From: Candidatus Contendobacter odensis Run_B_J11
Lineage (GTDB): Bacteria > Pseudomonadota > Gammaproteobacteria > Competibacterales > Competibacteraceae
NCBI RefSeq assembly: GCF_000531125.1
Contig: NZ_CBTK010000071.1
Coordinates: 1 to 42,366, forward strand
Reading direction: 5' to 3'
DNA: 42,366 bases
Shown here: in pieces, positions 1,358 to 42,366 of the stretch
Layout: every line of letters begins with the position of its first letter
Numbering within the stretch: position 1 is the stretch's first letter
The notes under the pieces: model-generated
Database searches by the model: none
Told to the model about the DNA's origin: nothing
The model's input: the letters and a program-made list of their open reading frames with translations, nothing else
Position numbers and translations under genes: made by a program

Positions 1358-1969
1358 ATGCGGACATTTGGCGAGCGGGTGGTTCTTCTCGGTATTCTGG
1401 CGTGGCTAAGCAGCGGCTGCGCCCCGAATAACCTCCAGGAACCGGTACAGTCGCCGTTGGCAACGAATCGAACGGCAGTGCCGGACGGCTCCTGGCTGCT
1501 GGTGGACACCAAGGCGGACACGCTGAGCATCATGCAGGGTAATCGCCCGGTCGAAGTGTTCCGCAAAATCGCCTTGGGTAGCAGCGGTGCGGGTGTCAAA
1601 TTCAAACGCGGTGATAACAAAACTCCGACCGGCGTATTTCGGGTGGGTTGGGTCAACGACAATAGTCGGTTCAAAACCTTTATCGGTCTCGATTACCCCA
1701 ATCCTGATTACGCGGAGCAGGCGTTGCGCGAGCATCGGATTGACCGGGTGACCTACGAACGCATCCAGACCGCCTGGGCCAGCGGTCATACCCCACCGCA
1801 GGACACGCCGTTGGGTGGGCAGATTGGCATCCATGGCGTAGGCGCAGGCAACCCGCAGGTACACAGTGCTGGTATCAATTGGACCAGTGGTTGTGTGGCA
1901 CTGGATAATCGGCAGATTGACGTACTCAGACCTTGGGTAAAAAAGGGGATGCGGGTCGAAATTCGCTAG
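1358..1969 (+). CDS. L,D-transpeptidase (YkuD domain), putative lipoprotein
   Basis: A 203-residue protein with an N-terminal lipoprotein signal (hydrophobic stretch followed by LSSGC, Cys21), so it is probably anchored in the outer membrane facing the periplasm. The C-terminal half is a YkuD domain with the catalytic signature spread over His159 (GIHGVG) and Cys179 (SGCVAL). Such enzymes form 3-3 cross-links in peptidoglycan or attach lipoproteins to it. The ATG follows GAGAGGTGA. It is followed by the small Lpp-like gene, and a second YkuD gene lies convergent beyond that. Which reaction this copy performs is not decidable from sequence. Confidence 0.85.
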   Translation: MRTFGERVVLLGILAWLSSGCAPNNLQEPVQSPLATNRTAVPDGSWLLVDTKADTLSIMQGNRPVEVFRKIALGSSGAGVKFKRGDNKTPTGVFRVGWVNDNSRFKTFIGLDYPNPDYAEQALREHRIDRVTYERIQTAWASGHTPPQDTPLGGQIGIHGVGAGNPQVHSAGINWTSGCVALDNRQIDVLRPWVKKGMRVEIR

Positions 1970-2111
1970 GTTGGATAATTATGGAATTGTCTGCACGCCC
2001 GAATTTGGTTATATTAAGCTATTGTTGTGTTGTGGCAACTCGGTTGTGCTTTGACAACATCGCTGTCTAGCACCTTTTTTCGTTCGATTTAGATTAATTC
2101 AGGAGTTGAAG

Positions 2112-2354
2112 ATGTCCCTCAAAACTGTAACCAAACTTTCCGCGCTGGCCCTGATTGCCGGGTTGACTGTGGGCTGCGCCAGTACCAGCGATCTGGCGGC
2201 GGTGCAGAAGGATGCCAACGAAGCGAAGGGTATGGCTCGTAACGCGATGGATACTGCTAACACTGCGCTGTCCACGGCTAACGAAGCCAAGTCCGTAAGC
2301 ATGGCGACTGAAGAGAAGATCAATCGCATGTTCAAGAAGTCGATGTTCAAATAA
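2112..2354 (+). CDS. Small Lpp/OprI-like alanine-zipper lipoprotein
   Basis: An 80-residue lipoprotein: basic N-terminus, hydrophobic segment, lipobox LTVGC (Cys22), then a short helix rich in Ala, Asn and Glu (repeats such as ANEAK and NTALSTANEAK) ending in Phe-Lys. The design matches Braun's lipoprotein (Lpp) and OprI, which trimerise as coiled coils and tether the outer membrane to peptidoglycan through the C-terminal lysine. The ATG at 2112 is preferred over an upstream TTG at 2106 because AGGAG (2101-2105) is spaced correctly for it. A TTGACA at 2051-2056 could be a -35 box, but no convincing -10 follows. It is flanked on both sides by L,D-transpeptidase genes, the enzyme class that joins Lpp to the cell wall. 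Confidence 0.75.
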   Translation: MSLKTVTKLSALALIAGLTVGCASTSDLAAVQKDANEAKGMARNAMDTANTALSTANEAKSVSMATEEKINRMFKKSMFK

Positions 2355-2390
2355 TCCAACTGGATCTGTCGAACGCTTGACAGTAGTATA

Positions 2391-2424
2391 AAAAAACCCC
2401 GCGACATATATCGCGGGGTTTTTT
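2391..2424. terminator. Bidirectional rho-independent terminator
   Basis: Perfect stem: AAAAAACCCCGCGA (2391-2404) pairs with TCGCGGGGTTTTTT (2411-2424) around the loop CATATA. The A-tract and T-tract make it usable in both directions, ending the Lpp-like gene on the plus strand and the convergent L,D-transpeptidase gene on the minus strand. Confidence 0.93.
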
Positions 2425-2433
2425 ATTGTCTGG

Positions 2434-3720
2434 CTATAACCGATTGATGGGTGGAGGTTCCATCGGTGCATAACCGGTGGATGGCCGAACCGGTGGAGCG
2501 GCGGGCCTGGAGTAGGGTGTCGGGTTAATCGGATCTGGCCGATACGCCGGTGGTACTGCTCTGGGAGCCTCTACCGGGTAGGAATAGGGCGGCGGCGGTG
2601 GGTAGCTCGCCGCCGGATTGCCGTAGGGCGTGGCGTATCCAGGCGGGTTGGCTGGAGCCGGACGGTAAGCGGGCGGGGACGGATTGTGATAGGCAGGGGG
2701 CGGAGCGGGGATCGGCGTTCGGTTGGCGACCGGGGCGCCAAGCGAGGAATCTGCGGGTCGTGCCCTATCCACCGGTTCAGTAGGATCTGGCCCCGGCTCG
2801 GCGTTAATCGCTACTGGAATACCACTAACCTGTTCCACCGCCACTTCCAGCGCTGCTTGATCTACACCGGGCATATCCGGGCCGGTCTTGGCGATCACCG
2901 CCTGCCGGGCCTGTTCCAGAGAGACCTTGAGCGGTAAATTGTCTTCTTCCAGCGGTTCATGCGATTCGACCATTAACACGCCATTCAGTCGACCGACTTT
3001 CACCGGCTGGTCAATCAGGCGCACCGGTGTGCCGACCGGCACCATGCTGAACAGTCGTTCAATGTCTTCCGGGTACATGCGCACGCAGCCATGCGTCACC
3101 CGCATCCCGATGCCGTAAGGTTTATTGGTGCCGTGGATCAGATAACCGGGCACGCCCAAGCGCATGGCGAAGCGCCCTAACGGATTATCCGGACCGCCGG
3201 GAATCACATCCGGCAGGATGTCGCCTTCAGCAGCGTGTTCAGCTTTGATCGAAGCCGGGGGCCGCCACGGCGGATCGATGTCCTTGGCGACGACCTTGGT
3301 CAAGCCTATTGGCGTATTCCAATCCATCCGGCCAATGCTCACTGGATAGGTGATTACCACCCGCTCTTCGCTGGGATTGGCTTTGGGGTAGTAATAAAGC
3401 CGCATTTCTGCAATGTTGAGGACGAGTCCTTCGCGTGGGGTGTCGGGAAGGATGTGGCGAGTCGGCAGCACGATGGGATTGCCTTCGCCCGGCGCCCAGC
3501 GATCCACGCCCGGATTGGCGTGAACAATTTCGTCATAACCCAAGCCATGACGGCGGGCAATATCAACCAGCGTGTCGTCCTTGGTGGCGTACATCACCTT
3601 AATCTGTCCGATCACGTCGCTGTCCGGGGGCGGCAGTGGATAAACCGTGGCGTGCGCGGCGCTGGTAGTCAGCCACCCCAGCAGTAGCCAATGGCAGCAT
3701 TTCAATGAGGGGTTCGGCAT
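2434..3720 (-). CDS. L,D-transpeptidase with LysM-like domain and proline-rich tail
   Basis: A 428-residue periplasmic enzyme of the ErfK/YbiS/YcfS/YnhG group. A signal peptide ends near AAHA (residue 24). A LysM-like segment for peptidoglycan binding covers about residues 43-87 (DDTLVDIARRHGLGYDEIV...NP). The YkuD catalytic domain runs over about 98-238 with His196 (LIHGTN) and Cys212 in THGCVRM. In E. coli this group includes the enzymes that attach Lpp to meso-diaminopimelate, and an Lpp-like gene lies convergent next door. The last ~125 residues are a low-complexity Pro/Tyr/Ala tail not needed for catalysis, possibly a wall-spanning extension. Its upstream region is shortened by the IS element ending at 3833. 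Confidence 0.9.
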   Translation of the reverse strand: MPNPSLKCCHWLLLGWLTTSAAHATVYPLPPPDSDVIGQIKVMYATKDDTLVDIARRHGLGYDEIVHANPGVDRWAPGEGNPIVLPTRHILPDTPREGLVLNIAEMRLYYYPKANPSEERVVITYPVSIGRMDWNTPIGLTKVVAKDIDPPWRPPASIKAEHAAEGDILPDVIPGGPDNPLGRFAMRLGVPGYLIHGTNKPYGIGMRVTHGCVRMYPEDIERLFSMVPVGTPVRLIDQPVKVGRLNGVLMVESHEPLEEDNLPLKVSLEQARQAVIAKTGPDMPGVDQAALEVAVEQVSGIPVAINAEPGPDPTEPVDRARPADSSLGAPVANRTPIPAPPPAYHNPSPPAYRPAPANPPGYATPYGNPAASYPPPPPYSYPVEAPRAVPPAYRPDPINPTPYSRPAAPPVRPSTGYAPMEPPPINRL

Positions 3721-3825
3721 GGGGTTGTCTCATCTCCAATTCAGTTGTCGGGGAAAAATGCTCAGGTTTTTCCCACAGTCCCGCGATAATACCAGAGCCG
3801 AACGGCCCTGGAGCCATAGGTAGAA

Positions 3826-3832
3826 GAGTTGC
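3826..3832. repeat. Putative target-site duplication, left copy (GAGTTGC)
   Basis: GAGTTGC here is repeated at 5031-5037, directly outside the right end of the IS4-like element. Seven bases is somewhat short for IS4-group duplications, so this is tentative. Confidence 0.45.
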
Positions 3833-5030
3833 CTCACCACCTATCAGTTTTGAATTAGGCTATCTGGCGAGTTTAACTGAGATCGCGAGGGGCTGATGGG
3901 AACGGTTCGGCAATTGGCGACGGAAATCGAACGGGGGTTGCGCGAAGCTCACCCGCAGCTGCGCAAAACCGTGGTGACGAAGGTGGCCTTGGCGGTGAGG
4001 GCGAGGCTCGAGGCGCAGACCCCGAATACGATGGAGCTGGCCCATCGGTTGCCACTCCCGACCGAACGCCAGGACCTGCGCGAGCCGTGGCTGCGGCGGT
4101 TGTTGAAGAATCCGTGGCGGTCGAGTGCGGAATGGCTGGAACCTTGGGCGCGCCAGGCCCTGGCGGGCCAGCACGGGCAACCGGTGGTTCTCAGTAGGGA
4201 CCCAACCGATTGGGGAGACCGCTTTGCGATCTTGATGGTCAGCCTCGGGGTGGGCGATCGGGCCTGACCGCTGGCGTGGGCGGTGGAAGCCGGCCCGGCC
4301 CATCGGGGATTTGACGCCCAGCAGATCCTGTTCGAGCGGGTTCGGGACGGGCTACCGGCCGCCATCGCGATGCTGCGGTTGGCCGATCGCTTCTATCCGT
4401 CGGTGGACGGATTCGAGTGGCTGCCCGCGCAGCCGAATGGGCATTACCGGTTGCGGTTGAAAGGGAATCTGATCGTCGATCCGGGCGTTGGCGATCGGAC
4501 CTCCGCCGGTGAACTCGCTGCGGGCCATGCCGAGCGGTCTCTGCGGGATGTCCGGTTGTTCAACCCCGGCGTACCGACGAACCTGGGGATTCTGCAAGAG
4601 CCGGGGCACCCCGAACCCTGGATCATCGCCCTGAATGACCCGCCGAATCGGGCGACGGTTCGCGATTACGGCAGCCGCTGGGGTATCGAGCCGATGTTCT
4701 CGGACTTTAAGAGTCGCGGTTTTCAACTCGAAGCCACGCAATGGCGTGCCCCGGATCGGCTGGATCGGCTGCGGGTGATCATGGCCTTGGCGATGCACGG
4801 GTGCGTGCGCGTCGGGCCAGAGGAGGCTCGCGAGCCTCCGACGTCATTGGAAAAAAAACTCAAGCGCAGACCGATCCGAACCCTTGGACCTTTACCCAAC
4901 TCGCCCGCAGTGCCGTCTCGTGGTTCAAGCGCGGTCTGCGCGCGCTCCAGCGGCGGCTTCAGATGCAACAACCTTTGCCGCCTTTCTATCGCGTCTGCCC
5001 CGTGATGAGGAACTGATAGGTGGTAAGGAG
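3833..5030 (+). mobile_element. IS4-like insertion sequence, degenerate
   Basis: The element is bounded by a perfect 14-bp inverted repeat, ACCACCTATCAGTT at 3836-3849 and its reverse complement at 5011-5024. The outermost CTC may match on both sides, with a 3-base length difference. Outside it, GAGTTGC occurs at 3826-3832 and again at 5031-5037, a likely 7-bp target duplication. The exact ends are uncertain by a few bases. The cargo is a single broken transposase gene. It landed between the L,D-transpeptidase gene and hoxF, close to both 5' ends. Confidence 0.72.
3896..5016 (+). pseudogene. IS4-family transposase, broken by a stop codon and a frameshift
   Basis: Remnant of a DDE transposase of the IS4 group. 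The opening frame (from ATG 3896) runs to a TGA at 4265-4267 after GVGDRA, and the same frame continues straight on (PLAWAVEAGPAHRGF), so the stop is an internal nonsense change. The DDE residues are probably the Asp in DPTDWGDRF, the Asp in LADRFYPS and the Glu in RWGIEPMFSDFK, which also shows the YREK signature (Y..R...E......K). In a run of eight A at 4851-4858 the frame shifts by -1, and the C-terminus (KTQAQTDPNPWTF to RVCPVMRN) is read in the new frame, ending at 5016. With both defects no full transposase should be made. Confidence 0.85.
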
Positions 5031-14614: not shown

Positions 14615-16710
14615 ACGCCATGATTTTTCGACGACAAGCACTGCGCCGCCGCGCTTTGGGTGGGTTGTTGCTAAGTGCGATTCTGGCTGTTCCGGTGAAC
14701 GCGGCACCGGTGACGCTGAATCTCAAGGATGCCGAGATCAACGCACTGGTGGAGAGCATGTCGGTACTGACCGGCAAGAATTTCATTGTCGATCCCCGAG
14801 TCAAGGGCCGAGTTACCATTATTTCCGCCAAGCCCATGGATGAGAAGGAACTCTATCAGGTGTTTTTAGCGGTGCTGGGCGTTCACGGCTTCGCGGCGGT
14901 GCCCAGTGGCAATGTGATCAAGATTGTGCCCGCCGCCGGAGCCAAGCAGGAGAGCATTCCCACGGTGGATCAGCGGGGCGGCGTCGAACCCGATCAGATC
15001 GTGACCCGGGTGATTCAGGTCCAAAATGTTTCAGCCGCCCAGATTGTACCGATCCTGCGTCCGCTGATTCCGCCGCAGGGTCATCTGGCCGCTTATACCC
15101 CGACTAATGTGCTGATCATTTCCGACAGCGCCGCCAATGTGGAACGCATCGCCAGCATCATCGCTAGAGTTGATTTGGCCAGTAATGAAGAAGTCGAGAT
15201 TGTGGCCTTGCGTCATGCCTCGGCCACGGAGATCGTGCGGGTGCTGACTGCGCTGGAACAAGGCAAAGCCCGCAACGATCCGGCTGCCGCCGTAGGTACG
15301 CCGCCACGAATGGTGGCGGACGAGCGCACCAACAGCATCCTGCTGAGCGGCGACAAGGCATCGCGGTTGCGGCTGCGGGCGCTGGTGACTCATCTGGACA
15401 CCCCACGGGACGGCGGTGGCAACACTCAAGTCGTCTATCTGCGCTATGCCAAGGCCAAGGATTTGATGACGGTGTTGCAGGGCGTCAGCAAAAGCCTGAG
15501 CGGCGAGGCCGGGCGCAGTGCGCCGCTGCCGGGGCAGGTTCCAGGCGCGGCACCCAGTAGCAGCAGCAGCAGCAGTCTGGTCGATATTCAGGCCGACGCG
15601 GCCACTAATTCCCTGGTAATCACGGCCCCGCCGGAAATGATTCGGTCGCTGCGGACCATCATTGCGCAACTGGATATTCGCCGTGCCCAGGTGCTGGTCG
15701 AAGCGGTGATCGCGGAAATTTCGGCCGAGAAGACCGCTGAATTGGGGGTGCAATGGGCAGTAGGCACCAGCAATGCCATAGGCTTCACCAACTTCGACGC
15801 CGGCACCTCCAGCCTGGCTAATATCATCGGGTTGGCGGCCCAAGCCGATCAAGGTGACTTAACCGCGATCTCGGCGGCGCGAATTCCGCAGGGGATCCAG
15901 ATCGGTGTGGGCGATTTCACCGGCAATAATCGCTTTGGCGCGCTGATCAGCGCCTTGGCCAAGGATGCCGATACCAACGTGTTGTCCACCCCGACCGTGG
16001 TCACGCTGGACAACGAGGAGGCAGAAATCATCGTCGGCCAAAATGTACCCTTCGTCACCGGCTCCTACACTACCGCGACCAGTGGCAACAGTACCTCACA
16101 AGTTGGCAATCCGTTCCAGACCATCCAGCGCGAGGACATCGGCATCAAGCTCAAGGTCAAGCCGCAGATCAACGAAGGCAACGCGGTCAAACTGGAAATC
16201 AGCCAGGAAGTTTCCAATGTGGTGCCATCGGCCAATGCTTCCACCCAGGGACCAACCACCAATAAACGGGCGATTAAGACCAATGTACTGGTAGAAAATG
16301 GGCAGATTCTGGTGTTAGGTGGCTTGATTGACGACAAGCTCGACGAAAGCGCGCAAAAAGTGCCACTGCTGGGGGACTTGCCGCTGCTGGGTGGCCTGTT
16401 CCGCTACCGCAACACTACCAAGCTCAAGCGCAATCTGATGGTGTTCCTGCATCCGGTCATTCTGCGCGATGCCGGGCAGGGAACGCTGCACACCGATAGC
16501 AAATACAGCTATATCCGCGATCAACAACTGGCGGCGCGCACCCGCGAGGTTTCACTGCTGCCCAACGTGCAGTCGCCGGTGTTGAAGCCGGTGGAAGAGG
16601 TCAGGGCGCAAGGGACGATTCTCGATACGCAGCCAGCGGCTCCGCCGTCACCACCCCCGCCGCCACCCCCGCCGCTGGCTCCCGCAGAATCCGGCTTCGG
16701 CAACAAATGA
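14611..16710 (+). CDS. gspD: Type II secretion system secretin GspD
   Basis: A 699-residue outer-membrane secretin forming the exit channel for folded exoproteins. A signal peptide ends near AVPVNA (about residue 31). The N0 domain follows ([33 protein letters not shown]), then the repeated N1-N3 ring domains, with a poly-Ser loop at about 317-322. The secretin core ends in [15 protein letters not shown] (about 584-598). The extreme C-terminus is a Pro-rich tail ([14 protein letters not shown]). A four-base ATGA overlap joins it to gspC on one side and gspE on the other. Confidence 0.95.
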
Positions 16711-18224
16711 GCGCCGAATCGGTGCTGGTCACGGCAGACCAGCGCGATCATCTGCTGCCACGTCACCTGCCCTATGCCTTCGCCAAGCGTCATGGGGTGC
16801 TGGTGCTGGAACAGACCGAGAGCGGCTTCAATGTTGCCTACCGCCCTGGGGTCAGCCCGCACAGTCTGATGGAATTGCGCCGCTATCTGAACGCGCCGTT
16901 ACGTCCAACCCTGGTGCCCGCCGAGCGTTTTGAACGGCTGTTGCAGGATAGCTACGAGGGCGATAGCAACGGCGCGGCGCGGATGATGGAAGATCTGGGT
17001 GAAGAAATGGATTTGAATCAGGTCGCCTTGGCTCTGCCCGAACCGGAAGATTTACTGGAAAGCGCCGATGATGCGCCGATCATTCGGCTGATTAACGCCC
17101 TGCTGACTGAAGCGATCAAGGAGAACGCCTCGGATATTCATATTGAAACCTTCGAGAATCGGCTGCTGGTGCGGTTCCGGGTGGACGGGGTGTTGCGGGA
17201 AGCCTTGCAGCCGCCCCGGGCGTTGGGGCCGCTGCTGGTGTCGCGAGTCAAGGTGATGGCTCATCTCGACATCGCCGAAAAGCGGTTGCCACAGGATGGG
17301 CGGATTTCGTTGCGGGTCGCCGGGCGACCGGTGGATGTGCGGGTTTCGACCTTGCCAACCGGACACGGCGAGCGGGTGGTGCTGCGACTGCTGGACAAGC
17401 GCGAAGGCCGGCTGGATTTGCGCCATCTGGGCATGGAGTCGGAGGACGAAACCCGGCTGCTGAAACTGATCCATCGCCCGCATGGCATCCTGCTGGTCAC
17501 CGGTCCCACCGGTTCCGGCAAGACCACGACGCTGTATGCGGGGCTGACTCAGCTTAACGACCGTAAGCGCAACATCATGACGGTGGAAGACCCGATTGAG
17601 TATTACCTGGATGGCATCAGCCAGACCCAGGTGAATACCAAGGTAGAAATGACCTTTGCTCGCGGCCTGCGCGCTATTCTGCGTCAGGACCCTGACGTGG
17701 TGATGGTTGGTGAAATCCGTGATCTGGAAACCGCTGAAATCGCGGTACAGGCGTCGCTGACCGGCCATCTGGTTCTCTCGACCCTGCACACCAACAGCGC
17801 GGTCGGTGCTATTACCCGCTTGCGTGACATGGGGGTAGAGCCATTTCTGCTGTCGTCCTCGTTAATTGGCGTACTGGCGCAACGGCTGGTGCGCAAACTT
17901 TGTCCCCACTGCAAGCACCCGCATCTCGCCAGCTTGGCGGATTGTGCAGTGCTGGGTATCGATCCGGCGACGCCGCCGACGTTGTATACGCCGGTCGGTT
18001 GCGAGCAGTGCAATCATTCCGGCTTCCGGGGCCGCACCGGCATTTTCGAGCTGGTCACGGTGGACGAGGCGATGCAAACCTTGGTTCACGAGGGCAAAGG
18101 CGAGCAGGAGATGGAACGTCATGCCCGGCGGTCCAGCCGCAGCATCCGCGATGACGGTCGCCGCCGGGTGCTGGCCGGCGATACTGCGCTGGCGGAACTG
18201 GTGCGGGTGACGCGGGAAGATTGA
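16707..18224 (+). CDS. gspE: Type II secretion system ATPase GspE
   Basis: A 505-residue cytoplasmic hexameric ATPase that powers pseudopilus assembly. The Walker A motif [10 protein letters not shown] is at 266-275 (Lys272), the Asp box EDPIEYY follows, the Walker B region is [14 protein letters not shown] (326-339) and the His box is [10 protein letters not shown] zinc-binding C-M domain is marked by Cys399 and Cys402 (CPHC) and Cys432 and Cys435 (CEQC). The length is normal and the C-terminus intact. In most relatives gspF follows immediately; here an AT-rich restriction-modification island comes first. Confidence 0.95.
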
Positions 18225-18496
18225 GGATTTTCTAGCAGAGATTGTTCTCTTTGCGAATGTGAAGACGCGGAAAATTTAATAGGGTTCAGTGTACCTGTTC
18301 GGTGTGAAACAAGTCTCTTTACAGGGTGTTTTCTAATCGTTAAGTGCAACTAAGAGAGTGAAAGTGAAGCCAGAACTGATGATAGAACACATCAAGGATG
18401 AAGCGGCAAAATTCGCTGAAATAGAAACTTCATACGATGAGCCAACCCTTTACGGTATAACCGACGGAAAAGCAGTCGGCACCTATCTTGAACACA

Positions 18497-18504
18497 AATT
18501 TATT
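18497..18504. repeat. Target-site duplication of the MITE, left copy (AATTTATT)
   Basis: AATTTATT at 18497-18504 is repeated exactly at 18648-18655, immediately outside the two element ends. Deleting the element with one copy restores the endonuclease frame. Confidence 0.9.
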
Positions 18505-18647
18505 CCTCCTGTAAATTTTCCTGTGATCGGAACTGTGGGACAGACAGATAAAATAAACATCACCTATTGAAATCAATGAGTTGGATTCAGTCAACACCCT
18601 AGCCTGACGCTACCAACCCTCGCCATCACAGGAAAATTTACAGGACC
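18505..18647. mobile_element. 143-bp MITE-like element with terminal inverted repeats
   Basis: The ends are inverted repeats: TCCTGTAAATTTTCCTGTGA at 18507-18526 and its exact complement at 18625-18644. Similarity extends a few bases each way, giving about 26-bp termini with scattered mismatches. AATTTATT is duplicated on both sides. The interior (~90 bp) has no coding potential. Non-coding body, long terminal repeats and a clean target duplication define a miniature inverted-repeat transposable element moved by a transposase encoded elsewhere. An 8-bp duplication is seen in several IS families (for example ISL3, IS1595, IS66, IS256); I cannot choose between them. Confidence 0.88.
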
Positions 18648-18655
18648 AATTTATT
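18648..18655. repeat. Target-site duplication of the MITE, right copy (AATTTATT)
   Basis: Exact copy of the octamer at 18497-18504. Confidence 0.9.
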
Positions 18656-19171
18656 TCTTATCTGTCAGAAAATTACAGCTACCAACAAGGAAATTCTGCG
18701 TCTGGAATTGATATTCCAGGTCTTGAGATTGATATAAAAGTTACCAGCATTAAACAGCCACAATCTTCTTGTCCTTTCAAATCTGCATCTCAAAAAGTGT
18801 TTGGATTAGGATACCACTTGTTGATATTCGTATATGATAAGTTTGACGATCATGAGAAAAAGACGGGCAGATTGAATATGCAGCACACGATATTTGTTGA
18901 AAAAGAACGCACTGCCGATTTTCAGACCACTAAAGGTTTGTTAGAAATTTTGGAGAGAGAAGGTAATAAAGATGATGTTGTCGCATTTATAACCGAAAGA
19001 AATCTTCCTGTAGATGAAATTGGTGCTGATCAACTTGCTGAACGTATTCTGGAGTCTCCACTACTTCAAGGTTATTTAACAATTTCAAATGCTCTACAAT
19101 GGAGGCTTCAATATGGTCGCGTTATTCAACAGGCAGGTGTCGTTACAGGCATCATAAGGGTTCGATAAATA

Positions 19172-20746
19172 ATGGCGAAGAAATCGATTGATAAATGGCA
19201 GTTTGGTGATTTTCAAACCCCTGAAAATCTTGCTAAAGAAGTGATTGAAACGCTTAAGAGGAATCATGCTATCCAACCCGATGTAATCATCGAACCTAGC
19301 TGTGGAAAAGGTGCCTTTATCCGCGCCGCCGCCTGTGGTTTTAGTGGATCAAAAATCTTAGGATTTGATATTAACGATCAATATGTAGCTGAGGCTAACT
19401 CTTCGGTAAACGGATTTTTTAGCTCAAATGAAATTCAAATCAATCAGTCAGATTTTTTTGATACCAATTGGGAATATCTTATTAAGAATTTGCCAGGTTA
19501 TATTCTGATTCTTGGTAACCCTCCTTGGGTAACAAGCAGTGAACTAGGTTTGCTCAACAGCAAAAATCTTCCTGCAAAATCTAACTTTCAGAATCGCCGG
19601 GGAATTGAAGCAATAACCGGATTGGGTAACTTTGATATTTCGGAGTGGATGTTGCTCAGATATGTTGATTGGCTATCAAATAGGCAGGGCATGATAGCCA
19701 TATTATGTAAATACTCTGTTGCTAGGAAAGTAATGCGCCAAATTAGGCAGGGCCGCGTAACCCAATTTTCAGGCTATATATATCTTATTGATGCTAAAAT
19801 TCATTTTGGCGCGTCGGTCGATGCATGTCTTTTTGTCCTAACTGTTGATATAAAACATTCAGGGTATGAAGTTTATGAACGGCTTGATTTAAAACAGGCT
19901 TCATACGTTATTGATGATAGAGATGGTTTTATTGTTAAAAATGTAGACGCCTACGAAAAGTGGAAACATCTAGTAGGACAAGATCCACACTATATCTGGC
20001 GGTCAGGAGCAAAGCACGATTGTTCAGATGTGATGGAGTTAGAACTGGTAGGTAACTACTTGCGAAACGGGCTTGGCGAACTTGTCGATTTGGAGAGCAA
20101 TTATTTATATCCGCTGTTAAAAAGTTCTGATATTGGAAACAGGCGGGTTAAATTAAATCGAAGAATGGTTTTGATGACTCAAAAATCTGTGGGAGAAGAT
20201 ACAAGTTCTATCTCGGAAAATGCACCAAAAACGTGGCGGTATCTCTCTGAACACAGTAGTTACTTGGAAAAAAGAGCAAGTTCTATCTACAAAAATAAGC
20301 CACCCTTCTCAGTTTTTGGTGTTGGAGAATATACATTTACAGAATGGAAGATCGCTATTTCAGGGTTGTATAAGAAACTGAATTTTGTGGTTGTAGGCCC
20401 AATAAATGATCGTCCAGTAGTATTCGATGATACAGTTTATTTTTTGTCTTTTTATAGCGCAGAAGAAGCAGAGTTTATATATAAACTTGTCTCTTCAAAA
20501 CCTGCATCTGAATTACTTGAATCAATGATTTTCTGGGATGAAAAGAGACCCATTACCTCCGAGATATTGAGGAGGTTATCATTCAAGGCTTTAGCCCAAG
20601 AGCTTGCTATTGAAGAACAGTATTTCCATTGGATTCAAGCAATATCGAAATCCAGTCAGGGCCAGTTAAAACTAAGAATAGCAGAACGCAATTTGGCGTA
20701 TCTTGCACGGCAGAAGGATGACGTTAAAAAAGCGGGCTGCATTTGA
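19172..20746 (+). CDS. Type II N6-adenine DNA methyltransferase
   Basis: A 524-residue SAM-dependent adenine methyltransferase. Motif order: X-like FGDFQTP (11-17), motif I IIEPSCGKGAF (39-49) for SAM binding, acidic Asp66 in GFDIND, QSDFFD (92-97), then the catalytic NPPW at 116-119. N-terminal motif X followed by I and IV indicates a gamma-type enzyme. The C-terminal ~300 residues probably form the target-recognition region. The frame appears full length. The gene begins three bases after the endonuclease stop with AAGGG at 19156-19160, so it was probably co-translated with it. With the endonuclease broken it acts, if expressed, as a solitary methyltransferase. Base composition differs from the flanking gsp genes. 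Confidence 0.88.
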   Translation: MAKKSIDKWQFGDFQTPENLAKEVIETLKRNHAIQPDVIIEPSCGKGAFIRAAACGFSGSKILGFDINDQYVAEANSSVNGFFSSNEIQINQSDFFDTNWEYLIKNLPGYILILGNPPWVTSSELGLLNSKNLPAKSNFQNRRGIEAITGLGNFDISEWMLLRYVDWLSNRQGMIAILCKYSVARKVMRQIRQGRVTQFSGYIYLIDAKIHFGASVDACLFVLTVDIKHSGYEVYERLDLKQASYVIDDRDGFIVKNVDAYEKWKHLVGQDPHYIWRSGAKHDCSDVMELELVGNYLRNGLGELVDLESNYLYPLLKSSDIGNRRVKLNRRMVLMTQKSVGEDTSSISENAPKTWRYLSEHSSYLEKRASSIYKNKPPFSVFGVGEYTFTEWKIAISGLYKKLNFVVVGPINDRPVVFDDTVYFLSFYSAEEAEFIYKLVSSKPASELLESMIFWDEKRPITSEILRRLSFKALAQELAIEEQYFHWIQAISKSSQGQLKLRIAERNLAYLARQKDDVKKAGCI

Positions 20747-20782
20747 AGTCTTTCCATCCTTTCCTACTCGATTTCCATCGCC

Positions 20783-22000
20783 ATGCCTGCCTTTCAATAC
20801 GCCGCACTTGATGATCGGGGTCGCCAGCGCAAGGGGCTGATTGAGGCGGATACGCCGCGCCTGGCCCGTCAAGCATTGCGCGAACGTGGCCTGAACCCGC
20901 TGGGGGTCGAAGAAGTCGCCAGCCAGGAGCGGCGGCGTGGCCGGCAGTGGTGGAGCGGACAGGTGCGGATCAGCGCCACCGACCTGGCGCTGATCACCCG
21001 GCAAATGGCGACCCTGGTTGGTTCCGGCCTGCCGCTGGAAGAGTCGTTGGGTGCAGTGGCGCGTCAGGCTGAGCGGGCGCGATTGAGCGGTCTGTTGCTG
21101 GCGGTGCGCACCCGGGTGCTGGAAGGCCACACCCTGGCCACCGCGCTGGGCGATTTTCCGCAAGTGTTCCCGGAACTGTACCGGGCGACGGTGGCCGCCG
21201 GCGAACAGTCCGGCCATCTGGAAGTGGTATTCGAGCGGCTGGCCGATTACACCGAGGCCCGCCAGCAAATGCGCCAAAAAGTCGGGCTGGCGCTGTTCTA
21301 TCCCTTGCTGTTGACCACCGTTGCCGTCCTGATCGTCGCTGGCCTGCTGACCTATGTGGTGCCGCAAGTGGTTCAAGTCTTCAGCAGCCTCAACCAGCAA
21401 TTGCCCGCCCTGACCCGTGGCCTGATCGCGGTCAGCGATTTTCTGCGTCAATCCGGTTGGCTGGTGCTGGCGGCGCTGGCAGCGGGCACCGCCAGTTGGG
21501 TGTACGCTCTGCGCCGGATCGGATTCCGGCGGCGGGTGCATCAAGTGTTACTGCTCATGCCGCTGCTGGCGCGCCTGATCCGCGGCGCCAATACCGCCCG
21601 CTTCGCCCGCACCTTCAGCATCCTGATGGCCAGTGGCGTGCCGGTACTGGAAGCGATGCGGATTTCCGCCCAGGTGCTGAGCAATCTGCCGATGCGGGAA
21701 GCGGTGGAGCAGGCGGCGCTGCGGGTCAAGGAAGGCGCCAGTCTGTACAAGGCGGTCAGCGCCAGTGGCTATTTTCCGCCGATGACGGTGCAACTGATTG
21801 CCAGTGGCGAGGCCAGTGGCCGGTTGGAGAACATGCTGGAACGGGCGGCGGTGCAGCAGGAGCGCGAGACCGAAACCCTGATCGCGGCGCTGCTGGGCAT
21901 TTTTGAGCCGATGCTGATCCTGGTGATGGGCGGGGTGGTGCTGGTGATCGTGCTGGCGATCCTGCTGCCGATCTTCGATCTCAATCAACTGGTGCGCTGA
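20783..22000 (+). CDS. gspF: Type II secretion system inner-membrane protein GspF
   Basis: A 405-residue polytopic platform protein of the secretion machine. It has two homologous cytoplasmic domains (about 60-170 and 265-375) and hydrophobic segments near 170-195, 220-242 and 375-400 (MLILVMGGVVLVIVLAILL). The N-terminus MPAFQYAALDDRGR is typical. There is no recognisable Shine-Dalgarno before the ATG, which fits a gene once translationally coupled to gspE and now separated from it by the restriction-modification island. No gspG-N genes follow; the next gene is convergent and overlaps its end by 16 bases. Confidence 0.93.
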   Translation: MPAFQYAALDDRGRQRKGLIEADTPRLARQALRERGLNPLGVEEVASQERRRGRQWWSGQVRISATDLALITRQMATLVGSGLPLEESLGAVARQAERARLSGLLLAVRTRVLEGHTLATALGDFPQVFPELYRATVAAGEQSGHLEVVFERLADYTEARQQMRQKVGLALFYPLLLTTVAVLIVAGLLTYVVPQVVQVFSSLNQQLPALTRGLIAVSDFLRQSGWLVLAALAAGTASWVYALRRIGFRRRVHQVLLLMPLLARLIRGANTARFARTFSILMASGVPVLEAMRISAQVLSNLPMREAVEQAALRVKEGASLYKAVSASGYFPPMTVQLIASGEASGRLENMLERAAVQQERETETLIAALLGIFEPMLILVMGGVVLVIVLAILLPIFDLNQLVR

Positions 22001-29824: not shown

Positions 29825-29901
<77 letters not shown>

Positions 29902-29944
29902 AAACCAAGTTCGCCTGGAGCAAGGAGTTGTGGTTCGTGACAAT

Positions 29945-30021
<77 letters not shown>

Positions 30022-30049
30022 AACCCGGCTCATTCAGTGAAGTTGCAAT

Positions 30050-30126
30050 GGTGGGCGTAGCTCAGTTGGCAGAGCTCCGGATTGTGGATCCGGTGGTCGT
30101 GGGTTCGAGCCCCATCGCTCACCCCA
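30050..30126 (+). tRNA. tRNA-His (GTG)
   Basis: Acceptor GTGGGCG pairs with CGCTCAC. The extra G(-1) at 30050 opposite C73 is the histidine identity element. Anticodon loop TTGTGGA between CCGGA and TCCGG; CCA encoded. Confidence 0.97.
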
Positions 30127-30179
30127 TTCAAGCCTGTTTTTTTGGTAAGCAATTTTTAGTTTCATTCGCACTCGTTTTC

Positions 30180-30256
<77 letters not shown>

Positions 30257-30421
30257 TCTTCAAAACACCTGCGGTTTTTTGTCTATTCTCATCTGCCACA
30301 GATAGAGCGACCTCGATGACTATCCCGGGGAAGCTCATTGTCTTGTATACTTGTTCTAAAGGGTGGCAGCATTCTGCATGTGGGTGTTTTTTGTTTATTT
30401 TGCGGTGTAGCACGATTCATC

Positions 30422-30506
30422 GCGAGAGTGGCGGAACTGGTAGACGCGCTGGATTTAGGTTCCAGTAGGGTAACCTGTGAGGGTTCGAGTCCCTCCTTTC
30501 GCACCA
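30422..30506 (+). tRNA. tRNA-Leu (TAG)
   Basis: Long-variable-arm tRNA of 85 bases. Acceptor GCGAGAG with CTTTCGC, anticodon loop TTTAGGT between CTGGA and TCCAG, variable arm TAGGGTAACCTGT, CCA encoded. It lies 165 bases after tRNA-Lys. Confidence 0.96.
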
Positions 30507-37068: not shown

Positions 37069-37144
37069 GGGTGCTTAGCTCAGTTGGTAGAGCATCGCCC
37101 TTACAAGGCGAGGGTCGCGGGTTCGAGTCCCTCAGCACCCACCA
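37069..37144 (+). tRNA. tRNA-Val (TAC)
   Basis: Acceptor GGGTGCT pairs with AGCACCC; anticodon loop CTTACAA between TCGCC and GGCGA; CCA encoded. Confidence 0.97.
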
Positions 37145-37157
37145 CGGTTTGGGTATC

Positions 37158-37234
37158 GGAGCGGTAGTTCAGTTGGTTAGAATACCGGCCTGTCACGCCG
37201 GGGGTCGCGGGTTCGAGCCCCGTCCGCTCCGCCA
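37158..37234 (+). tRNA. tRNA-Asp (GTC), copy 1
   Basis: Acceptor GGAGCGG pairs with CCGCTCC; anticodon loop CTGTCAC between CCGGC and GCCGG; discriminator G; CCA encoded. Identical to the copy at 37292-37368. Confidence 0.97.
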
Positions 37235-37291
37235 AATATTATCCTTTTACACTGTGCATAGTCGTGCCTTGTCGATGTTTCGTTGTATCCC

Positions 37292-37368
37292 GGAGCGGTA
37301 GTTCAGTTGGTTAGAATACCGGCCTGTCACGCCGGGGGTCGCGGGTTCGAGCCCCGTCCGCTCCGCCA
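37292..37368 (+). tRNA. tRNA-Asp (GTC), copy 2
   Basis: Same 77-base sequence as copy 1, 57 bases downstream, a recent tandem duplication or gene-converted pair. Confidence 0.97.
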
Positions 37369-42273: not shown

Positions 42274-42295
42274 CCTCCTGTAAATTTTCCTGTGA
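42274..42295. repeat. Third copy of the MITE terminal repeat
   Basis: Twenty-two bases identical to 18505-18526, containing TCCTGTAAATTTTCCTGTGA. The bases after it differ from the 143-bp element's interior, so this is the end of a different element with the same termini, whose other end lies beyond the window, or a solo end. It is enclosed by an 11-bp inverted repeat (AATACCGAATA at 42232-42242 and its complement at 42301-42311). Confidence 0.8.
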
Positions 42296-42327
42296 CGTGA
42301 TATTCGGTATTTTGGTATAGCTCTCCT

Positions 42328-42366
42328 ATGCAGGTTGTGGAATTTTTAGATACCATTCTATTTTTC
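42328..42366 (+). CDS. Possible start of an open reading frame at the window edge
   Basis: ATG 42328 opens a frame of 13 codons (MQVVEFLDTILFF) that runs off the window, 32 bases inside the terminal repeat copy. It could be the start of the gene carried by the element, but no clear Shine-Dalgarno is present and the stretch is too short to recognise. Confidence 0.25.
   Translation, partial: MQVVEFLDTILFF

Follow-up and report, generated by a model that had tools for sequence, protein, structure and literature searches.

In Anabaena sp. 90, 147 complete or partial MITEs are described, 15 of which lie in disrupted chromosomal ORFs and were counted as pseudogenes (PMC3542288), and insertions of IS and MITEs are described in cas genes (PMC10359306). 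MITEAba12 of Acinetobacter, mostly 113 bp in length, is described as retaining a target duplication in 40% of 90 copies (PMC6382973). MITEs are thus described as a source of pseudogenes (PMC3542288) and mobile elements as inactivating defence genes (PMC10359306). Loss of restriction with retained modification belongs to this known kind of decay. In the titles and abstract openings of the literature on MITEs combined with restriction genes, hsdR or precise excision, no MITE-interrupted restriction gene is reported.

The locus described here lies on contig NZ_CBTK010000071.1 of Candidatus Contendobacter odensis Run_B_J11 (GCF_000531125.1); the whole 42,366-nt stretch of DNA analysed is called the window. 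Its MITE resembles MITEAba12, as far as the latter's published account was used, in having AT-rich targets, in disrupting a gene and in sharing its ends with an IS, which in the case of MITEAba12 is a resident one. MITEAba12 differs by its 9-bp duplication, by its IS relative and by its target, hns, for which a phenotype is described (PMC6382973). The Anabaena MITEs also disrupt genes, and the part of that report drawn on here mentions no restriction gene among them (PMC3542288). The cas insertions likewise place small mobile elements in anti-phage defence, but in CRISPR-Cas rather than in R-M systems, in what is cited here of that source (PMC10359306). Type II R-M systems with an NF052465 or related endonuclease occur on plasmids of Nostoc cf. 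commune SO-36 and Klebsiella quasipneumoniae (pmS1O1-GES24), with the endonuclease gene directly before or overlapping the methyltransferase gene. The Nostoc endonuclease matches NF052465 over its whole length, and that of Klebsiella is 54.8% identical to the C-terminal piece of the protein from the window. In both, unlike in the window, the endonuclease gene is uninterrupted.

Results

A MITE splits a restriction endonuclease gene

The features of the locus are listed below with their coordinates in the window.

18225..20782, + strand: whole R-M cassette, between gspE (16707-18224) and gspF (20783-22000), recognised by synteny in relatives and by GC content
18364..18504, + strand: N-terminal piece of the restriction endonuclease gene (NF052465 profile positions 1-42; start from the comparison with G021), with GTYLEHKF and its Glu45 (numbering from 18358)
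18497..18504, no strand: target-site duplication, left copy, AATTTATT
18505..18647, no strand: 143-bp MITE with inverted ends and stops in all three forward frames (from the sequence and a copy search)
18648..18655, no strand: target-site duplication, right copy, AATTTATT
18656..19168, + strand: 3' portion of the endonuclease gene, stop codon included, carrying the putative catalytic Asp68, Asp75 and Lys77 (GID...DIKVTS), TISNALQWRLQY (NF052465, PADLOC and invariant residues)
19172..20746, + strand: partner DNA methyltransferase gene, 524 aa, uninterrupted, with an NPPW motif (PADLOC MTase_II, 1.2e-170, residues 2-472)

The inverted ends of the MITE are perfect over 21 bp inside two mismatched outer bases, and as single-stranded DNA the element is predicted to form a hairpin (z = -5.5). 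The endonuclease frame runs into the MITE and terminates at a TGA at 18568. When 151 bases (the MITE and one copy of the 8-bp repeat) are omitted, the two parts form a single frame of 219 codons with no internal stop, which ends at 19168, 3 bases 5' of the methyltransferase ATG at 19172. The gene carries no frameshift or stop other than the MITE. Given the local base composition, an exact 8-bp repeat at the borders of the element is expected by chance with a probability of about 2.5e-5. As a control, left and right flanks were taken from different MITE copies: none of 870 pairs from 30 loci matched at 8 of 8 positions, and in a wider set of copies 8 of 6035 cross-copy pairs did so, two of these involving the same contig-end flank (L154). 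A search for outward promoters between 18225 and 19400 gave no match on the + strand and a single one on the - strand; shuffled sequences gave more.

The two pieces of the protein were scanned separately against profile NF052465 (type II restriction endonuclease). Residues 7-48 of the N-terminal piece (49 aa) match profile positions 1-42, and residues 2-166 of the C-terminal piece (170 aa) match positions 45-209, at 285.8 bits against a cut-off of 290. The C-terminal piece is also a PADLOC REase_II (2.6e-80). A Pfam search at E 0.1 returned no family for either piece, and sequence searches against solved structures returned nothing relevant. The set of homologues comprised 90 loci, 80 kept from the 444 relatives found in a one-genome-per-species scan and 10 from a viral scan; three of the proteins (L134, L135 and L136) are identical. 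In 88 of the 90 loci an open frame crosses the junction without a gap, and the remaining two (L100 and L142) are without that part of the protein. The 151 bases are not part of the coding sequence in any of these 88, and each of the 88 matches the joined frame through the junction. An uninterrupted gene is present in G021, a genome of the same bacterial family, where a 217-residue endonuclease (218-codon frame, Met at codon 2) is encoded beside the methyltransferase.

From these comparisons the gene encodes a type II restriction endonuclease and has been interrupted by the insertion of a MITE. The first-pass annotation, made from the letters of the window, had reported a 143-bp MITE between direct repeats that split a restriction endonuclease gene, had stated that removal of 151 bases would restore one frame, and had suggested a search of related genomes for the uninterrupted gene. 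The exact duplication and inverted ends, the colinear NF052465 halves and the joined frame bear it out, and G021 has such an uninterrupted gene. It had also given the product as a 219-residue protein. The frame is correct; translation more probably began at GTG 18364 than at 18358, because the former lines up with the initial Met of the uninterrupted G021 gene, and the protein was probably of 217 residues.

The insertion divides a putative active site

Forty-four of the 90 homologues were aligned, with L056 as the first sequence. Glu43, Asp66, Asp73 and Lys75 (L056 numbering) are invariant throughout; their counterparts in the window, Glu45, Asp68, Asp75 and Lys77, are putatively catalytic. 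The MITE insertion separates residue 45 from residue 68, and neither piece carries all four.

The predicted model of L056 has a pLDDT of 91.3. Foldseek gave no significant match to it (best E 0.21). In a second structure comparison, 49 of the 50 rows shown were restriction enzymes or MutH, with many repeats of EcoRV and HincII. The best match was EcoRV, with Z 8.0, rmsd 4.0 and 144 residues aligned; in comparisons of this kind a Z below 8 may signify merely a common arrangement. We take the matched restriction enzymes and MutH to share the PD-(D/E)xK fold, and it is likely, from the model, that the endonuclease has this fold as well. The PD-(D/E)xK core proposed at the outset thus agrees with the invariant residues and with the predicted model, the structure scores being middling.

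State and age of the interrupted gene

The window sequence deviates at 2 of 78 strongly conserved columns (at least 95% agreement). For comparison, 85 homologues were scored at the same columns, each excluding itself, after L066, L100, L135, L136 and L142 had been dropped: 45 had no deviation, 22 had one, 9 had two and 9 had three or more. Relative to G021, dN/dS is 0.15 and 0.057 for the endonuclease pieces and 0.104 for the methylase. These ratios cannot date the insertion, since synonymous sites are near saturation in the comparison with G021, the nearest uninterrupted relative found.

Four MITE copies, that of the window included, are identical across 143 bp. This identity is a weak clock, because the three other copies lack a target duplication; gene conversion between MITE copies is a possible reason for identical copies without duplication. 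An empty site for one of them (on C261) was looked for in seven congeners. In five of them its left flank aligned, the alignment stopping about 83 bp before the element is reached, whereas the stretches on its right side aligned only elsewhere; the site is therefore not comparable. Recombination between copies was also considered as a reason for missing duplications; flanks of different copies pair as duplications would in the 8 of 6035 cases given above.

The insertion had initially been called recent, and the gene had been said to have kept its frame and motifs since. The latter holds, the conserved columns being intact and both halves open. As to the former, conserved columns as intact as those of uninterrupted homologues, together with a perfect duplication, fit a recent break; the identity of MITE copies does not add to the case.

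The methyltransferase and the origin of the cassette

The NPPW motif of the partner methyltransferase presumably places it among N6-adenine enzymes. NCBIfam profiles gave weak, below-cut-off matches only. The cassette has a GC content of 38.9%, compared with 58.2% in the remainder of the window, where a type II secretion operon surrounds it. In relatives, gspE and gspF are adjacent: among the matches listed, their spacing is -1 to 42 bp in 11 of the 11 relatives' loci compared (gspF was matched in 35 of 36 genomes, and spacing was taken from the 12 loci listed, one being that of the window). Because of this adjacency and of the low GC content, the cassette was probably acquired by horizontal transfer. 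Two tRNA clusters lie further along the window, at 29825-30506 (five genes) and 37069-37368 (three genes, two of them tRNA-Asp).

A search of 58 other genomes for the methyltransferase gave a strong match in three (G021, G011 and G013). That of G021 is 76% identical over residues 1-514. In G011 the methylase frame is open over 516 codons, with TGA stops at and after its end, and the endonuclease gene is broken: residues 1-127 are spread over two frames where contig C12 ends (L277 and L280) and residues 141-217 are found where contig C71 ends (L279), which looks as if a repeated element lay between the pieces. In G013 (L278, on C110), only residues 177-216 of the endonuclease (L056 numbering) remain beside the methylase. 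The endonuclease stretches of G011 and G013 contained no MITE end motif.

The annotation of one Nostoc relative of the methylase reads 'type II restriction enzyme NspV homolog', and we take TTCGAA to be the NspV site. TTCGAA occurs once in the window, against 14.1 expected, and six of the 64 palindromes rank lower. As a specificity for the methylase this sequence is a lead only.

The MITE family and its candidate parent

The genome of the organism (a 4.6-Mb draft in 319 contigs) contains 55 matches to the MITE, fragments and single-end matches included. The end motifs, with up to two mismatches, occur 114 times, against 0 for a reversed control motif. Pairing by end motif gave 46 elements; two were alternative pairings and one was without a full flank, leaving 43 distinct copies with measurable flanks, 12 of which carry an exact 8-bp duplication. 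This proportion is not strange, because MITEAba12 retains a duplication in fewer than half of its copies. From four relatives 20 stretches were taken, five without a measurable element, and one of the 15 distinct copies measured has the duplication. The element thus presents the features of a MITE: it is short and non-coding, has terminal inverted repeats and many copies, has, for the window copy, a target duplication, and shares its ends with transposase-bearing elements of relatives.

In G032, G005 and G013, matching ends enclose transposase frames of 413, 406 and 418 codons, respectively. Profile scanning covered the G032 frame, whose best match is NF033572 (ISKra4 family; E 4e-34, 118.4 bits against a curated cut-off of 205); those of G005 and G013 show 59% and 53% identity with this frame. 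The right end of the MITE also has additional bases in common with an end of the element in G032. By its NF033572 match the latter resembles the ISKra4 family and p-MULT 4 transposases, as the cited part of their description presents them, but the match is below the cut-off (PMC3942029). Several elements of the ISKra4 group are described in the same source as inserting upstream of promoters, with which the position of many MITE copies, outside long frames, agrees (PMC3942029).

The organism's own draft yielded no intact ISKra4-like transposase between matching ends, and a draft of this kind can miss repeated elements. Contig C299 holds an N-terminal fragment of an ISKra4-like transposase adjoining one end. 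Two further ISKra4-family matches fall below the cut-off, and the stretches examined around them contain no MITE-type end. The mobilising transposase is uncertain, because an ISL3-like fragment (C28) and an IS4-like fragment (C31) also adjoin one MITE-type end each; among the ISL3-like relatives, the end motif is nearby only at the C28 copy and at one beside a MITE copy. On balance, mobilisation of the MITE in trans, through a transposase of the ISKra4-like type, is probable.

Several other repeats and ends were seen. The last bases of the window, 42274-42366, belong to an element that is cut off by the contig end. It has the same inverted end, after which a reading frame may start, and is perhaps an IS of the same end type. 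Four contig ends (L154, L155, L164 and L165, on C101, C276, C41 and C281) have more than 40 bp of one element end in common. Two of them bear complementary 8-mers, as if bordering one insertion, perhaps of a longer element whose inverted ends are themselves long. At L023 (own genome, C68, near 60241), a frame that is free of stops over 1488 bp passes through a MITE copy and may be coding or due to chance. A different repeat of about 115 bp (L002, about 1795-1909) has many copies in the own genome and in the congener G003.

The same MITE family splits an hsdR gene

A second restriction gene of the same genome is split by the same MITE family, again with an exact duplication, which is new here.

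Contig C87 of the own genome (L248), 1717-4999: type I hsdR gene split by the MITE family, exact 8-bp duplication ATTTTTGA

This copy, whose site falls within about 4250-4460 of the contig, is identical to that of the window at 132 of 143 bases. The first part of the interrupted gene is hsdR (TIGR00348, E 1.5e-138). Relative to a 1048-residue homologue from Synechococcus PCC 7502, the N-terminal piece (855 residues) aligns to positions 1-859 and the C-terminal piece (187 residues) to 862-1047. Loss of activity is less certain here than for the type II enzyme, since the helicase and the other named domains are all in the N-terminal piece. No hsdM was found on this 5.9-kb contig; upstream of hsdR are a PIN-domain gene and a weak HsdS-like match. 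On contig C101, another HsdR-like gene (L255) is apparently split between overlapping frames, in a stretch with no MITE end.

Removal of the element restores a stop-free span of at least 600 bp at 7 of the 12 duplication-bearing copies. The restored genes include the endonuclease gene of the window, hsdR, a gene in which DUF6056 lies downstream of the insertion and a GGDEF gene; the remaining ones include a possible RibD_C (below cut-off) and one without a family, the family scan having covered six of the seven. The presence of two restriction genes among the seven, noted post hoc, is suggestive, and AT-rich, dispensable targets would produce the same.

Discussion

We consider it highly probable that the locus records the arrival of an R-M cassette by transfer, a MITE insertion, and the loss of restriction while the methylase was kept. 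A type II cassette, probably acquired horizontally, came to lie between gspE and gspF, and a MITE, from a family of dozens of copies, afterwards entered the endonuclease gene and duplicated 8 bp. Translation would then end 21 codons into the MITE, dividing the putative active site and leaving no nuclease, while the intact methyltransferase gene should provide modification without restriction. The insertion, the duplication, the identity of the gene and the open frames of both halves and of the methylase are directly visible, whereas the loss of restriction, the continued methylation and the choice of transposase are what we infer.

The flanks of the MITE could have been brought together by the assembly itself, a short-read assembler having bridged unrelated contigs through a 143-bp repeat. 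The draft is in many contigs and the repeat is present in four identical copies, which would favour such an error; however, the flanks are consecutive parts of one gene and repeat a single 8-bp target, which a chance join would not yield, and we regard an artefact as extremely unlikely. A biological alternative, raised in the first-pass annotation with excision as speculation, is that precise exit of the MITE is frequent enough for a small share of the cells to restrict, the methylase protecting the genome at all times. The exact repeat, the two halves that make one open frame once 151 bp are taken out, the strong single-stranded hairpin, the uninterrupted methylase and an hsdR gene split likewise are all compatible with a reversible switch of this kind. 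Yet many MITE copies are without the duplication, and in place of an intact ISKra4-like transposase with matching ends the draft shows the C299 fragment and two below-cut-off matches. Precise excision by slippage between short repeats that flank inverted repeats is known from Tn5 and Tn10, where it is rare. Reversion might in principle occur here by rare slippage between the 8-bp repeats, aided by the hairpin, or through a transposase, and would not be expected to be frequent. A frequent, selected switch is accordingly very improbable in our view, and we give just as little credence to its extension to the whole genome, in which the MITE family would hold restriction off (type II and hsdR) and modification on, rare precise excision giving a few restricting cells that could survive a phage epidemic with no danger to their own DNA. 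Ordinary loss of restriction with the methylase retained is most likely.

That loss may have been selected. If restriction is costly or self-damaging, insertions in nuclease genes would be favoured, and methylases would be kept since losing them first is lethal. This proposal is compatible with the transfer and insertion set out above and adds a selective reason to it. Two types of restriction gene have been struck by one MITE family, and G011 and G013 also have a broken nuclease gene beside a methylase, with an open frame for the latter in G011. On the other hand, the numbers are small, the G021 nuclease gene is uninterrupted, the G011 and G013 stretches are without the MITE end motif, and the G011 break falls at contig ends. 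Moreover, in an AT-rich cassette with AT-rich duplications, target preference or dispensability explains the insertions equally well. We therefore treat selection as a tentative addition, rather less likely than not.

Returning to the transfer and insertion reading, if the MITE did nothing beyond breaking the gene, the locus would be a clean case of the origin of an orphan methyltransferase, with the nuclease gone and the methylase kept. If excision were true, it would be a reversible restriction switch, safe as the methylase is never off. Even an ordinary gene break gains interest from the second restriction gene split by the same family in the same genome, and the hsdR case raises the question whether MITEs hit restriction genes more than other accessory genes.
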